64,000 nucleotides of DNA, from the NCBI RefSeq assembly GCF_001679785.1, contig NZ_CP016286.1:558001-622000 (forward strand). Direction: 5' to 3'. Positions within the stretch are counted from its first letter, which is position 1. Each line of letters starts with the position of its first letter. Position numbers and translations under genes: made by a program. Positions 41,121 through 46,273 of this stretch are shown piece by piece. The DNA comes from Rhizobium leguminosarum (GTDB taxonomy: Bacteria > Pseudomonadota > Alphaproteobacteria > Rhizobiales > Rhizobiaceae). Under the pieces are notes generated by a model. The model ran no database searches and had not been told where the DNA came from. It saw nothing but the letters and a program-made list of their open reading frames with translations.

Positions 41121-42083
41121 ATGAAGAGTTCGATCGTTGAAAGCCGGCAGTCCTGGTTTATGCGCAATCGCATGACCGTTCTGACGGTCGTCATTGTCGC
41201 AGCCTATGGCCTCTTCATCCAATGGTTCTGGGGCTGGCCCGTCATCATCAGCCAATGGGCCGATGTCGGCGCGGGTCCCGTGATCGCTGCGCTCGTACTG
41301 CTGACGAGCACCTATTTCCTGCGCACCTGGCGCATCTATGATTATTTTCCGAAGGAAACGGCCGGCCGGTTTGCGACCCTCTTCCGCGTCACGCAGATCC
41401 ATAATCTGCTGAACATCATGCTGCCTTTCCGAACCGGCGAAACCAGCTTTCCGCTGTTGATGCGCACCGAATTCGGCATTCAGCTGACGCGCGGAACCTC
41501 GGCGCTGTTCGTCATGCGGCTGCTCGACCTGCACGCGCTTCTGGCCGCCGCCGGCATCGGCTTTGCAGTCGCTTCAGCCGATGCCGCTGTTGCCTGGTCG
41601 CTCTGGACTGTCTTCCTGCTGCTGCCGGTCGCGGCCTTCGCCGCCCGCAAGCCGCTGCTGCGCCTAGCCGCCAGACTGCTGCCGAACAAGGCGCAGAAAT
41701 TCGTCGCCGAGATCGAAAACGGCTTGCCGCTCGATGCCGTCGCCTTTGCGCGTGCTTGGGCGATGACCATCGTCAACTGGCTGGTGAAGGTGATGGTGCT
41801 CGCATGGGCGCTCGGCCTGATGGGCGTGCTGCCGATGGCGGCAAGCTTCGGCGGCGCGCTCGGCGGCGAGCTCTCCTCCGTGCTACCGATGCATGCGCCA
41901 GGCGGCGTCGGCACCTATCCGGCCGGCATTACCGCCGGCGCCATCGCCTTGGGCGCCTCCAGCGAGCGGCTGGCCCTTGCCGCGCTGGCGCAGGCGAGCG
42001 TCAATGCCCATTTGCTGATCATTGTCTCGGCGCTGACGGGAACTGCGATCTCACTACCGCTCGGACGTCGTGGCAAGCTCTGA
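41121..42083 (+). CDS. Flippase-like integral membrane protein (lysylphosphatidylglycerol-synthase TM / UPF0104 family)
   Basis: The protein has 320 residues and about eight hydrophobic helices. The family motifs IHNLLNIMLPFRTGE (near 95-109) and MHAPGGVGTYPAGIT (near 257-271) are visible, the latter being the conserved PGGxG-x-E/P loop of the LPG synthetase transmembrane domain family. It diverges from the Rgt-like operon. It is plausible that it moves or supplies the lipid-linked sugar donor, but this is inference. The last 30 bp overlap the convergent sigma-factor gene. Confidence 0.78.
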   Translation: MKSSIVESRQSWFMRNRMTVLTVVIVAAYGLFIQWFWGWPVIISQWADVGAGPVIAALVLLTSTYFLRTWRIYDYFPKETAGRFATLFRVTQIHNLLNIMLPFRTGETSFPLLMRTEFGIQLTRGTSALFVMRLLDLHALLAAAGIGFAVASADAAVAWSLWTVFLLLPVAAFAARKPLLRLAARLLPNKAQKFVAEIENGLPLDAVAFARAWAMTIVNWLVKVMVLAWALGLMGVLPMAASFGGALGGELSSVLPMHAPGGVGTYPAGITAGAIALGASSERLALAALAQASVNAHLLIIVSALTGTAISLPLGRRGKL

Positions 42084-43292
42084 AATCCGCTTTCTCAGAA
42101 ACGCCTGCTCCGGCTCCTGCCGGCAGAGCGACAGCGCCGTTTGATAGGCCGCGATTGCCTCTTGCCTCCGGCCGAGACGGCGCAGGAAATCGGCGCGCGC
42201 CGAATGGACGAGGTGATAGGCCTGCAGCTCCCGGCGTCCCAGAATGCTATCGATCAGGTCCAGCCCCTTCGCTGGCCCTTCGGCCATCGCAATCGCCACG
42301 GCGCGGTTGAGCTCGACGATTGGAGAGGGCTGCGCCGCCAGCAGCAGATCGTAATAGAAGGCGATCCGCCGCCAGTCGGTCTCTTCGGCAGCCGGCGCCC
42401 TGGCATGCTCGGCGGCGATCGCCGCCTGCAGCGTATAGGTGCCGATCTCTCCCGCTTCCATCGCCGCGGCGAGCAGCGCCAGGCCTTCCGTAATCTTCGC
42501 ATGATCCCAGAGCGAGCGGTCCTGATCGGCAAGCAGCACCAGCGATCCGTCTCCGACGCGGCGGGCGGTACGGCGGGAATCCTGCAGCAGCATCAAGGCC
42601 AGCAGGCCGGAGACGTCGGGATGCGGCAGCAGCGCCAGAAGCAGTCGCGCCAGACGGATCGCTTCTGCGGTCAGGTCGGCGCGGACCACCTCCTCGCCCG
42701 AAGAGGCCGAATAGCCCTCGTTGAAGACGAGGTAGATGACGTGCAGCACCCGGTCGAGTCGCGGCGGCAGCGCCTCGCGGCCCGGCACCTCGTAGGGGAT
42801 CTTCGCGGCCCGGATCCTGCCTTTGGCGCGCACGATCCGCTGGGCCACCGTCGGCGCCGGAATGAGGAAGGCATGGGCGATCTCTTCGGTGGTCAGCCCG
42901 CAGATTTCCCTCAGCGCCATCGCCATCTGCGCATCGGCCGGGATGAGCGGATGGCAGCAGGTGAAGATCAGCCGCAGCATGTCGTCCTCGATCGGTTCCA
43001 TGTCGCCGATCTCCGTTGCATCGGGCGTGTAGAGGCTGTCTTCGATATGATGCTGCGAAGCATCGAAACGCGCCCGCCGTCGGATCGTGTCGATCGCCTT
43101 GAAACGCCCCGTCGAAACGAGCCAGGCGAAGGGATTGCCGGGAATACCGTCCGTCGGCCATGTCCGGGCGGCGGCGGTAAAGGCGTCGTGAAGCGCCTCC
43201 TCCGCCCGGTCGAAATCGCCGAGCAGACGGATCAGCGTCGCCAGCACCCGGCGCGACTGAGTTCGGTAGATTTCTTCGATGACGCTTTCCAA
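42054..43292 (-). CDS. ECF42-type RNA polymerase sigma factor with C-terminal extension
   Basis: The protein has 412 residues, much longer than standard ECF sigma factors. Region 2 is RVLATLIRLLGDFDRAEEAL, FTAAARTWPTDGIPGNPFAWL and AIDTIRRRAR; region 4 is MALREICGLTTEEIAHAFLI and PAPTVAQRIVRAKGRIR. The about 230-residue C-terminal extension contains the ECF42 hallmark VIYLVFNEGYSASSG and a TPR-like end (DFLRRLGRRQEAIAAYQTAL). ECF42 sigma factors lie beside DGPF/YCII genes, as here with three, and have no anti-sigma factor. It is last in the operon, 9 bp after the first DGPF gene. Confidence 0.93.
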   Translation of the reverse strand: MESVIEEIYRTQSRRVLATLIRLLGDFDRAEEALHDAFTAAARTWPTDGIPGNPFAWLVSTGRFKAIDTIRRRARFDASQHHIEDSLYTPDATEIGDMEPIEDDMLRLIFTCCHPLIPADAQMAMALREICGLTTEEIAHAFLIPAPTVAQRIVRAKGRIRAAKIPYEVPGREALPPRLDRVLHVIYLVFNEGYSASSGEEVVRADLTAEAIRLARLLLALLPHPDVSGLLALMLLQDSRRTARRVGDGSLVLLADQDRSLWDHAKITEGLALLAAAMEAGEIGTYTLQAAIAAEHARAPAAEETDWRRIAFYYDLLLAAQPSPIVELNRAVAIAMAEGPAKGLDLIDSILGRRELQAYHLVHSARADFLRRLGRRQEAIAAYQTALSLCRQEPEQAFLRKRISELATTSER

Positions 43293-43301
43293 TCAGGCAC
43301 C

Positions 43302-43661
43302 TCAGTCTGGCAGGGTCAGCGTCCGCACGGGCCTCAGTTCGACCGCGCCGTAACGGGCCGACGGGATTCGCCCGGCGATCTCTTTTGCCTTGACCATGTC
43401 GGGCGCCTCGATGACGTAGAAGCCGGCCAGATGCTCCTTCGTTTCGACATAGGGACCGTCCGTGGCGGAGAGCGTGTTGTTGCGAACGCGCAGCACGGTC
43501 GCCGTGTCAGGCATCTCCAAGGCATCGGAGTGGATCATGATGCCTTCGCGGCTCAGCTCCTCATCGAAAGCGAAATGCGCTTTGATAAGTTCGGCGGTTT
43601 CATCAGGCGTCAGCGTTCCGTCCGTGTCGGTGCTGTTATAAATCAGGCAGATGTAGCGCAT
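43302..43661 (-). CDS. YCII/DGPF-domain protein 1
   Basis: The protein has 119 residues. It starts MRYICLIYNSTDTDGTL and has LSATDGPYVETKEHLAGFYV, a DGPY variant of the DGPF signature, then ARYGAVELRPV. YCII-like proteins form small ferredoxin-like dimers of unknown chemistry (some are lactone or chloro-compound enzymes). It lies in the ECF42 operon between protein 2 (2 bp away) and the sigma factor. Confidence 0.9.
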   Translation of the reverse strand: MRYICLIYNSTDTDGTLTPDETAELIKAHFAFDEELSREGIMIHSDALEMPDTATVLRVRNNTLSATDGPYVETKEHLAGFYVIEAPDMVKAKEIAGRIPSARYGAVELRPVRTLTLPD

Positions 43662-43663
43662 CG

Positions 43664-44023
43664 CTATTTCCCATCCTCAATGGAGTAAGTCGGGCGCACT
43701 TCGATCGAGCAATATTTGAGGATCGGAAAACTCGACACGATCGTCTTCGCCTCCTCGATAGTCTCGGCTTCGATCAGCAAAAAACCGCCGAGGTGCTCTT
43801 TGATTTCGGCAAATGGGCCATCGGTCGCAAAGGCTTCGCCATTGCGCAGGCGGACCGTGATCGCCGTTGACGGTTCATGCAAGGCGAGCGCCACCAGCAG
43901 ATGACCGCTCTCGCGCCAGCGATTGTCGCTGGTGATGCACTCCTGTGTGAGCGCATCCCATTCGGTCTGAGGGACCAGCTTGCTTTTTTCCGTGTCGAAC
44001 CAGATCTGGCATAGAAATTTCAT
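43664..44023 (-). CDS. YCII/DGPF-domain protein 2
   Basis: The protein has 119 residues from ATG 44023 (MKFLCQIWFDTEKSKLVPQT), which is preceded by AGGAGAGACCA. The signature is FATDGPFAEIKEHLGGFLLI and the end is KYCSIEVRP. An upstream extension of 28 codons is not conserved and overlaps protein 3. It is the middle gene of the DGPF trio. Confidence 0.9.
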   Translation of the reverse strand: MKFLCQIWFDTEKSKLVPQTEWDALTQECITSDNRWRESGHLLVALALHEPSTAITVRLRNGEAFATDGPFAEIKEHLGGFLLIEAETIEEAKTIVSSFPILKYCSIEVRPTYSIEDGK

Positions 44024-44033
44024 TGGTCTCTCC

Positions 44034-44390
44034 TCATTTAGCTCCGAATTCGTGGATTGGCCGCACCTCGATCGCGCCGAGCCTGGCGAGTGGGATACCC
44101 GCGGCAATGCGGATCGCTTCGTTGAGATCCTTGGCCTCGATCAGGATGAAGCCGCCGAGCGCCTCCTTCGTCTCGGCGAAGGGACCGTCCGTCACCGACA
44201 TCTCGCCATTGCGCACCCGTACGGTCACCGCCGATTTTGGCGGCTGCAACGCCTGGGCGACGATCATATGCCCGCTTTCGACGAGGTCCTCGTCATAGTT
44301 CAAGGAATTAGTGTCGAGTTCGGTCTTCTCCTCTTGCGTCATGGCGTCGAGTACCCCGCCATCGAACCAGACCTGACAGAGATATTTCAT
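44034..44390 (-). CDS. YCII/DGPF-domain protein 3 (first gene of the ECF42 operon)
   Basis: The protein has 118 residues from ATG 44390 (MKYLCQVWFDGGVLDAMTQE). The signature is SVTDGPFAETKEALGGFILI and the end is LGAIEVRPIHE. It is closest to protein 2. An ECF42-like promoter (TGTCGA-17-CGTC on the minus strand, 44452 to 44426) ends about 35 bp upstream. The trio and sigma factor are therefore likely autoregulated. Confidence 0.9.
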   Translation of the reverse strand: MKYLCQVWFDGGVLDAMTQEEKTELDTNSLNYDEDLVESGHMIVAQALQPPKSAVTVRVRNGEMSVTDGPFAETKEALGGFILIEAKDLNEAIRIAAGIPLARLGAIEVRPIHEFGAK

Positions 44391-44425: not shown

Positions 44426-44452
44426 GACGAACGACCTGCATGCATTTCGACA
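44426..44452 (-). promoter_or_regulatory. ECF42-like promoter for the DGPF-sigma operon
   Basis: On the minus strand TGTCGA (44452-44447) is followed after exactly 17 bp by CGTC (44429-44426). The published ECF42 promoter, as I recall it from Streptomyces work, has TGTCGA at -35 and CG[A/T]C at -10. The start codon of DGPF protein 3 lies 36 bp downstream. Confidence 0.6.
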
Positions 44453-44481
44453 GCGCCGCGAAAAAAATTGTGCGGACGAGG

Positions 44482-44508
44482 TGTCGAAATAGCAAGGCAG
44501 CACTCGAC
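44482..44508 (+). promoter_or_regulatory. ECF42-like promoter for the small membrane protein
   Basis: TGTCGA at 44482-44487 is followed after exactly 17 bp by CGAC at 44505-44508, the same architecture as the minus-strand promoter 30 bp away. The ATG of the 72-residue membrane protein lies 35 bp downstream, a fitting distance. Confidence 0.55.
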
Positions 44509-44542
44509 AAGGCTTCATCGAAACCTGTCGAGGAGAATGGAA

Positions 44543-44761
44543 ATGAGCATTCTTGAAATCGCTCTGGCAAGCCAGATCTGGGCACGTCGCCACGAGAAGC
44601 GTCAGCTGGTAGTACCCGACGATGCCGATGTGCTGAAGGTTCTCCTGCGCATCGCTTTCGTCGTGATGGCCTTCACGCTGCTGATATCAGGGCTGAATCT
44701 TGCCGCCGGTAGGCCGCAGATGCTGGCCGCGGGCTCGGCGCCTGTCGTGACGGGCAGATGA
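44543..44761 (+). CDS. Small single-pass membrane protein, probable ECF42 regulon member
   Basis: The protein has 72 residues. ATG 44543 has GAGGAG about 7-12 nt upstream; the ATG two codons earlier is too close to it. One clear TM helix runs about 32-54 (LLRIAFVVMAFTLLISGLNL), with a charged N-terminal part (WARRHEKRQLVVPDDADV). I do not recognise a family. Its divergent placement against the DGPF-ECF42 operon and the matching promoter suggest it is switched on by that sigma factor. It converges with amn, 9 bp away. Confidence 0.65.
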   Translation: MSILEIALASQIWARRHEKRQLVVPDDADVLKVLLRIAFVVMAFTLLISGLNLAAGRPQMLAAGSAPVVTGR

Positions 44762-44770
44762 GGAAACGGC

Positions 44771-46273
44771 CTATTGGAAGGCCGTTTCGAAGAAGCTGCG
44801 CAGCTTGCGCGAATGCAGCGCTTCCTTCGGCATGGCGGCAAGCTTCTGGACGGCGCGGATGCCGATCTGCAGATGCTGGTTGACCTGCGTGCGGTAGAAG
44901 GCCGTTGCCATGCCCGGCAGCTTCAATTCGCCGTGCAGCGGTTTGTCGGAGACGCAGAGCAGCGTGCCATAGGGCACGCGGAAGCGGAAGCCGTTGGCGG
45001 CGATCGTTGCCGATTCCATGTCGAGCGCGATCGCGCGCGCCTGGGAGAGCCGCTTCACCGGTCCGCGCTGGTCGCGCAGTTCCCAGTTGCGGTTGTCGAT
45101 CGTACCGACGGTGCCGGTGCGCATGATGCGCTTCAACTCGAAACCTTCATAGCCGGTGATTTCGGCAACGGCGGCTTCGAGCGCCACCTGCACTTCGGCC
45201 AGCGCCGGGATCGGCACCCAGACCGGCAGGTCGTCGTCGAGGACATGGTCCTCACGCATATAGGCATGGGCGAGAACATAGTCGCCGAGCCGCTGGCTGT
45301 TGCGAAGACCGGCGCAGTGGCCGAGCATCAGCCAGGCATGCGGGCGCAGCACGGCGACATGGTCGGTGATCGTCTTGGCGTTGGAGGGGCCGACGCCGAT
45401 ATTGATCATGGTGATCCCGGCATGGCCCTTCTTCTTCAGATGGTAGGCCGGCATTTGCGGCAGGCGGGTGAGAGCGGCATCCGTTTCCGGCGCGTTCGAG
45501 CCGGGCAGGGTGACGACATTACCGGGCTCGACGAAGGCAGTATAGCCGTCGCCGCCCTCCGCCATCAGCTTGCGCGCCCAGCCGCAGAATTCGTCGATAT
45601 AGAACTGGTAGTTGGTGAACAGCACGAAATTCTGGAAATGCTCGGCATGCGTCGCCGTATAGTGCGACAGCCGGGCGAGCGAATAGTCGATGCGTTGTGC
45701 GGTAAACGGCGCCAGCGGCGAGGGCTCTCCCGGCGGCGGGATATATTCGCCGTTGGCGATCTCGTCGTCGGTGGTGTTGAGGTCGGGCGTGTCGAAGATA
45801 TCGCGCATCGGAACGTCTATGAAGGCGTTGGTCGATGCTTCCACATGTGCACCTTCGCCGAAGGCGAAGTGGAGCGGGATCGGCGTCGACGATTCTGAGA
45901 CGACGATCGGAACATTATGGCTCTTCATCAGCAGCGACAGCTGCTCCGTGAGGTAATGCTTGAAGAGCTTCGGCCGGGTCACGGTCGTCGTGTAGATGCC
46001 AGGTGCCGTGACATGACCGTAGGAAAGCCGCGAATCGACATGACCGTAGCTTGTCGTCTCGATGCTGACCTGCGGATAAAATGCGCGGTACCGCGAGGAG
46101 ATCGGAGCGCCCTGCGCAAGTTCGCTGAAGCTCTCGATCAGGAAGGCCGTGTTGCGCTCATAAAGCGCTGTCAGCGTCTCGACCGCCTTAGCGGGATCAT
46201 CGAAGCTCTGAGGCTGGAAAGGCGGAGGAGAGGATATGTCGAGGGGCGACAAAAGGGAGATTCGTTTGTTCAT
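44771..46273 (-). CDS. amn: AMP nucleosidase
   Basis: The protein has 500 residues, the typical length. The N-terminal Amn domain (to about 200) includes YPQVSIETTSYGHVDSRLSY and GHVTAPGIYTTTVTRPKLFK. The phosphorylase-fold domain has TMINIGVGPSNAKTITDHVA, LMLGHCAGLRNSQRLGDYVL and ALDMESATIAANGFRFRVPY, which includes the Glu that holds the ribose. It cleaves AMP to adenine and ribose 5-phosphate in the cytoplasm. Confidence 0.96.
   Translation of the reverse strand: MNKRISLLSPLDISSPPPFQPQSFDDPAKAVETLTALYERNTAFLIESFSELAQGAPISSRYRAFYPQVSIETTSYGHVDSRLSYGHVTAPGIYTTTVTRPKLFKHYLTEQLSLLMKSHNVPIVVSESSTPIPLHFAFGEGAHVEASTNAFIDVPMRDIFDTPDLNTTDDEIANGEYIPPPGEPSPLAPFTAQRIDYSLARLSHYTATHAEHFQNFVLFTNYQFYIDEFCGWARKLMAEGGDGYTAFVEPGNVVTLPGSNAPETDAALTRLPQMPAYHLKKKGHAGITMINIGVGPSNAKTITDHVAVLRPHAWLMLGHCAGLRNSQRLGDYVLAHAYMREDHVLDDDLPVWVPIPALAEVQVALEAAVAEITGYEGFELKRIMRTGTVGTIDNRNWELRDQRGPVKRLSQARAIALDMESATIAANGFRFRVPYGTLLCVSDKPLHGELKLPGMATAFYRTQVNQHLQIGIRAVQKLAAMPKEALHSRKLRSFFETAFQ

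Follow-up and report, generated by a model that had tools for sequence, protein, structure and literature searches.

The sigma operon lies on the minus strand of the window, the whole 64,000-nucleotide stretch of Rhizobium leguminosarum DNA that was analysed. Its first gene encodes DGPF/YCII protein c (DGPF_c, 44034-44390; Pfam YCII, 2.2e-23), followed by DGPF/YCII protein b (DGPF_b, 43664-44023; YCII, 9.8e-13), DGPF/YCII protein a (DGPF_a, 43302-43661; YCII, 4.4e-20) and an ECF42-type sigma factor with sigma2, sigma4, DUF6596 and a TPR-like C-terminal extension (42054-43292). An LPG-synthase-like gene on the plus strand borders the operon. A small gene is read divergently on the plus strand (44543-44761). 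It consists of 72 codons plus a stop and has one transmembrane (TM) segment, in agreement with the 72-residue single-pass membrane protein proposed in the initial annotation. R. laguerreae was among the nearest named relatives, and its protein was 96% identical. The start common to the relatives is the ATG at 44543, with an additional in-frame ATG at 44537, and a Shine-Dalgarno-like GAGGAG (44530-44535, plus strand) aligned in the relatives. Furthermore, a 10-bp inverted repeat (44763-44788), putatively terminator-like, is present 3' of the small gene, and the RNA fold z-score for 44755-44800 was -3.99. The small gene therefore looks monocistronic. The repeat overlaps the 3' end of amn (AMP nucleosidase), which lies on the minus strand and is convergent with the small gene.

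Between the start codons at 44390 (minus) and 44543 (plus) lies a spacer of 152 bp. The initial annotation had placed TGTCGA-17-CG(T/A)C motifs on both strands of the spacer, about 35 bp from the start codons, and both were found as described. The minus strand at 44452-44426 reads TGTCGAAATGCATGCAGGTCGTTCGTC and the plus strand at 44482-44508 reads TGTCGAAATAGCAAGGCAGCACTCGAC, each with a 17-bp spacer; the -10 and the ATG are 35 nt apart on the minus strand and 34 nt apart on the plus strand. The former (TGTCGA-17-CGTC) is the putative ECF42-type promoter of the DGPF/sigma operon, and the latter (TGTCGA-17-CGAC) is that of the small gene. The two -35 boxes are separated by an A-tract (44461-44469), which may be UP-element-like.

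The sigma factor was assigned to ECF42 by its domains, C-terminal extension, adjoining YCII genes and promoter motif. The protein of 412 aa matched Sigma70_r2 and Sigma70_r4_2 above the gathering score and DUF6596 at residues 177-277 (1.9e-36), and no sigma3 match was present among the 10 Pfam families listed. In addition, TPR_2 matched at residues 361-390 (7e-6) with 26.2 bits, slightly below the gathering score of 27. Three YCII/DGPF genes adjoin the sigma gene, as is typical of the ECF42 neighbourhood, and the promoter motif is also of the type of this group, for which Liu et al. reportedly gave the consensus TGTCGA / CGWC in 2018. According to the available descriptions, RpoE10 of S. meliloti, Sven_0747 of S. 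venezuelae and ECF-10 of P. putida likewise have a long TPR-bearing C-terminal extension and a YCII/DGPF neighbour. The available text on S. meliloti RpoE10 (ECF42) gives mapped, RpoE10-responsive promoters of the form TGTCGG-17-CGTC upstream of SMc01149 and SMb20475, the mapped start of SMc01149 being the 9th nt past CGTC, and a motif preceding SMc01151-rpoE10 that overlaps the mapped start of this gene, which was itself unresponsive to RpoE10 overexpression (PMC6180224). By analogy with SMc01149, transcripts of our locus would start near 44517 (plus) and 44417 (minus). The CGTC -10 and the distance of 17 bp to the -35 are shared with our locus, while the S. meliloti -35 is TGTCGG. Unlike the RpoE10, Sven_0747 and ECF-10 modules as described there, the present locus has a conserved divergent CGAC promoter motif and a small one-TM gene.

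To assess the conservation of the locus, the sigma factor was sought in 148 genus genomes, and 145 had a match at E 1e-60 or better. The best match was 68-100% identical in 133 genomes and was taken as the orthologue; 12 genomes had a distant paralogue as the best match (E 1e-87 to 1e-97), and three had none. The 133 spacers examined consisted of 25 loci from the small-protein search and 108 further loci. Two to four DGPF genes, mostly three, adjoined the sigma gene in all 133 loci. Both motifs were also present in 133/133 with at most one mismatch, two of the plus motifs having a 16-bp spacer. The motif scan at this threshold located the plus motif in 128 loci and the minus motif in 128 loci; the other five carried about 100 bp of inserted DNA, with both motifs lying further out. 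The -10 was CGAC at the small gene in 127/128 and CGTC at the operon in 127/128, another third base being scored as a mismatch. This consistent difference may set different strengths or a different sigma preference. An A/T run of 7 or more was found between the -35 boxes in 115 of the 133 loci, compared with 181 of 5320 random windows in the same loci, and the overall A+T content between the boxes was not raised (0.51 versus 0.50 after the plus motif).

An intact one-TM ORF followed the plus motif in 131 of the 133 orthologous loci. In L170, an in-frame TGA interrupts the small gene ahead of its membrane segment, with both motifs and the sigma operon retained, and in L206 the small ORF ran off the contig end. 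The ORF was sought 15-60 nt past the motif, one hydrophobic stretch being required and the start nearest to 33 nt being chosen; with this rule it started 30-35 nt past CGAC in the 127 loci that yielded an ORF, one of which (L157) was a mis-hit. When the first suitable ATG was taken instead, the start was mostly 26-35 nt past CGAC among the matches listed. Within the stretch examined, amn was found beyond the small gene in 131 of the 133 loci, the exceptions being L203 and L206. The result showed that head-to-head ECF42-type motifs before DGPF-DGPF-DGPF-sigma and the small gene are kept throughout the genus. The initial annotation had proposed that a co-regulated membrane protein is added to the sigma/DGPF module, and had named lack of conservation of the plus motif or of the small protein in related loci as evidence against it. 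Such a lack was not observed (133/133 and 131/133), and the proposal is supported at the level of sequence conservation.

The 27 named loci, which overlap with genomes of the 148-genome set, all had the order sigma-DGPFx3-small-amn, and 25 of them had exact copies of both motifs. The small-protein BLAST search gave 25/100 genomes, which is an underestimate because BLAST misses the small protein in many genomes with the orthologous sigma. In L179, L181, L185, L188, L195, L197 and L207, the distance from DGPF_c to amn was about 1.5-2 kb, compared with the usual 0.4 kb. Despite this wide gap the small gene stays beside the sigma operon, so that it appears tied to sigma and not to amn. Moreover, the identity of DGPF_b, and also of DGPF_a, among close relatives jumped between about 60% and more than 85%, while amn and the sigma N-terminus stayed above 85%. 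These jumps suggest allele replacement or recombination within the operon.

Of 58 disjoint pairs, 56 gave a dN/dS below 1 for the small ORF; the median was 0.33, and the third codon positions were the most divergent. This substitution pattern showed that the ORF is under purifying selection, as a real gene would be. Among 127 unique sequences, R36 was conserved in 127, L51 in 126 and E5 in 125. The membrane segment begins at R36, and L51 is close to its end. AF2 predicted two helices (residues 3-21 and 27-55), the latter including the TM segment, with a mean pLDDT of 74.7 and block means of 92 and 95 for residues 31-50. The N-terminus is predicted to be cytoplasmic from the positive charges before the TM segment. 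The small protein evolves fast, with a median identity of 72% compared with 95-100% for amn and 88% for DGPF_c (n = 53). Searches found no relative in Pfam, NCBIfam or the PDB. In public annotation it is a hypothetical or transmembrane protein, such as RHE_CH01326 of R. etli CFN 42.

Paralogous ECF42 loci and genomes lacking the orthologous sigma served as controls. For 16 of the at least 17 paralogous ECF42 loci in the genus, the operon-facing motif was present in 14, the divergent motif was present in none, and no small protein was found by BLAST. The source genome contains two ECF42 paralogues, with the operon-facing motif at one and the divergent motif at neither. One of these further ECF42 factors (L282, G000:C1:2766522-2767700), 45% identical, had an operon-facing TGTCGG-17-CGTC, which resembles that of S. 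meliloti RpoE10, and was without the divergent motif. The divergent small gene is not a general feature of ECF42 loci.

The small protein was present in 131 of the 133 genomes carrying the orthologous ECF42. A profile search of 15 genomes of the genus without it gave 0/15, weak matches in three being set aside; the other 12 had no profile match at E 0.01, and the positive controls matched in the same search at E 1e-14 or better (7/7). The best weak match in each of the three genomes (E about 1e-4 to 3e-4) was rejected, as it was antisense to the frame of a ribosomal protein gene, presumably that of S20, and neither the motif nor a match to ECF42, DGPF or amn was present in the surrounding stretch. 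The second weak match in each genome (E 0.003-0.004) lay inside frames of about 360 codons. The distribution across the genus showed that the small gene goes with this ECF42 lineage.

ECF42 was also found outside the genus. Searches gave 31 of 199 genomes for the family (E 1e-100 or better) and 20 of 297 for the order (1e-110), and four genus genomes are common to the two counts. An exact divergent motif with a one-TM ORF was present in three loci from other genera of the family, L224 (64 aa, 36 nt past the motif), L225 (46 aa, 35 nt) and L227 (61 aa, 54 nt), and in L253 (70 aa, 36 nt) from another family. Partial cases were L229 (motif CGTCGA, ORF of 53 aa, 29 nt past the motif), L226 (exact motif, 80-aa ORF starting 73 nt past it), L237 from the genus of L226 (80 aa, -10 CGAT) and L254 (70 aa, -10 CGGC). 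By eye, R36 and L51, 15 residues apart, recurred in L224, L227, L237 and L253, and L226 had K in place of R. In another genus, L228 and L230 kept only the N-terminus of the small gene, without the TM segment. Together with the in-frame stop of L170, these loci indicated that the protein can decay while the sigma factor stays. The divergent gene at the place of the small gene in L250 and L252 encodes a cysteine-rich protein of about 137 aa, which we take to be GFA-like, and in L251 the ORF at this place had no TM segment.

No such small ORF was seen in the other 29 loci (L231-L236, L238-L249, L255-L265), where ORFs were sought only after a plus-facing match and in flanks of about 1.5 kb, so that others could be missed. 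The operon-facing match was present in 14 of these more distant loci. In L245, a plus-facing TGTCGA-17-CGTC at about 3721 was followed by a membrane protein of 127 aa that does not resemble the small protein. The family profile reached proteins of Mesorhizobium (E 2e-11) and Pelagibacterium (2e-7). The expectation that the small protein would stand beside ECF42 loci in other rhizobia thus held for the orthologous loci (131/133) but neither for the paralogues (0/16) nor for the 29 distant loci, where none was seen.

The frequency of the motif depended strongly on how it was defined. The loose form TGTCGA-N15..19-CGWC was over-represented in the whole window, with 10 matches against a mean of 2.14 in shuffles, so that loose matches carry little meaning. 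The loose form with spacers of 16-18 bp gave 571 matches in the 8.57-Mb genome and was likewise uninformative. The only matches to the exact 17-bp form in the window were the two motifs of the spacer and, at 44483-44509, the plus motif read in reverse. The genome search for the motif, as suggested in the initial annotation, gave three matches to the strict form with a 17-bp spacer (TGTCGAA-N15-TCGWC). Two of them are those of this spacer, and the third lies inside a stop-free frame of 696 codons. The remaining 46 of the 49 genome matches had 16- or 18-bp spacers and lay mostly in long frames, which is a weak test. Frame cover separates coding from intergenic motif sites poorly, because the 152-bp spacer itself falls within a stop-free frame of 212 codons, and the frame-cover test was applied only to the third 17-bp match. 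With two strict sites outside the 696-codon frame, the strict regulon may consist entirely of the DGPF proteins and the small protein; this reading covers strict TGTCGA sites and not looser ones such as TGTCGG.

The 152-bp spacer very probably acts as an ECF42 promoter in both directions, and the small protein is very probably a lineage-specific co-regulated component. It is highly probable that the motifs of the small gene and of the operon are ECF42-dependent promoters, and with equally high confidence the small protein is regarded as a component of the module of this ECF42 lineage. The adjoining ECF42 sigma would read both promoters, since the motifs resemble the mapped promoters of S. meliloti RpoE10 and are conserved. 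The lack of response of SMc01151-rpoE10 in S. meliloti counts against this reading. The conservation suggests that the sigma factor switches the operon and the small gene on together, and the small protein would be made whenever sigma is active. Its predicted place is the inner membrane, where the N-terminal helix (residues 3-21) would face the cytoplasm and a short tail would protrude on the outer side. There it might be a membrane-anchored partner feeding back on the sigma/DGPF module, and the cytoplasmic helix or the membrane-proximal turn might touch the sigma factor, its TPR extension or a DGPF protein. A bidirectional ECF42 promoter together with such a feedback partner is, by a modest preference, the best explanation overall.

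A feedback or sensing role of the small protein by itself is proposed tentatively. In the available text of previous studies, no anti-sigma factor is identified near ECF42 genes (PMC6180224, PMC8999054), and the TPR extension of ECF42 probably acts via another protein, the partner not being identified there (PMC6180224, PMC8999054, PMC9023288). That the small gene is tied to a single sigma lineage lends appeal to the idea of a direct partner. However, a review, in the part available, proposes YCII/DGPF proteins as part of ECF42 control (PMC8999054), which counts against a feedback role of the small protein. The role was rated lower because these proteins are already proposed as regulators, and the missing sensor, which the initial annotation had sought in the small protein, need not be this protein. 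The small size of the cytoplasmic part, which has only about 35 residues in this protein and fewer in the relatives of 46-55 aa, also counts against feedback, as does the conservation of the TM-associated residues R36 and L51, which equals or exceeds that of E5. Further points against it are the absence of anti-sigma similarity in the Pfam, NCBIfam and PDB searches and the fast evolution of the small protein. Its decay in L170, L228 and L230 likewise speaks against the favoured explanation.

The small protein might also be a membrane-tethered minimal anti-sigma factor or sensor under the sigma factor's own divergent promoter, forming a new family (E5, R36-x14-L51) in one ECF42 lineage of Rhizobium and some relatives in the order, which is considered rather unlikely. 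The anti-sigma factor CnrY of Cupriavidus metallidurans is bitopic. As described in the available text, CnrY belongs to class II and has two helices, the first binding sigma4 and the second sigma2 (PMC7406223). The small protein is likewise predicted by AF2 to have two helices (3-21 and 27-55), but its second helix is mostly TM, with only about nine cytoplasmic residues. The small-protein profiles A1 and A3 matched no anti-sigma factor among PDB sequences up to E 10, CnrY included. The short cytoplasmic part, the lack of anti-sigma similarity and the conserved TM residues argue against a classical anti-sigma factor.

It is quite possible that the small protein is purely an output, namely an inner-membrane effector produced along with the DGPF proteins under the same stress and without effect on the sigma factor. 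In agreement with this, the strict 17-bp sites of the genome are the two of the spacer and the one in the 696-codon frame, the near-invariant R36 and L51 are in or at the TM segment, and the presumably GFA-like gene at the same place in L250 and L252 looks like an output swap. However, one might expect a free-standing effector to travel, whereas the small protein was absent beside the 16 paralogous ECF42 sigmas and from the sigma-less genomes of the genus (0/15, with the weak matches in three set aside).

It is improbable that the plus motif is a second binding site controlling the sigma operon, serving as a decoy for the sigma factor or as a repressor dyad (TGTCGA-N16-TCGACA). In the window, the plus motif does lie within a perfect inverted repeat and also matches on the minus strand at 44483-44509. 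However, the base completing the dyad varied between loci (A 82, C 37, T 9 of 128), the first base of the -35 drifted too (T 112, C 8, G 7, A 1), and orientation, 17-bp spacing and start-codon distance were all conserved. The dyad was rejected as a regulator site. A chance motif next to an unrelated or spurious ORF is hardly credible, for although the loose motif is common in the genome and open frames are abundant in high-G+C DNA, as around the spacer itself, the dN/dS of 0.33, the near-invariant residues, the absence at paralogues and, as the strongest evidence, the conservation of the motifs in 133/133 orthologous spacers speak against it.

A small hypothetical protein is also described in the regulon of another ECF sigma factor, namely CfrX of Pseudomonas aeruginosa (84 aa) in the SigX regulon (PMC7641640); compared by the available description only, CfrX differs from the small gene in its predicted operon with cmaX and cmpX and in its sigma factor. 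In the portion of the literature covered on ECF42, YCII/DGPF sigma modules and rhizobial small membrane proteins, no description of the small protein was found. The ECF42 module is known, and the added co-regulated membrane protein appears to be new. A small-protein family is defined for which no Pfam or NCBIfam entry was found, and the two predicted promoters are offered for testing the role of the protein. Besides YCII, the small protein would be a concrete second candidate for the partner of ECF42, or an output of the module at the membrane.
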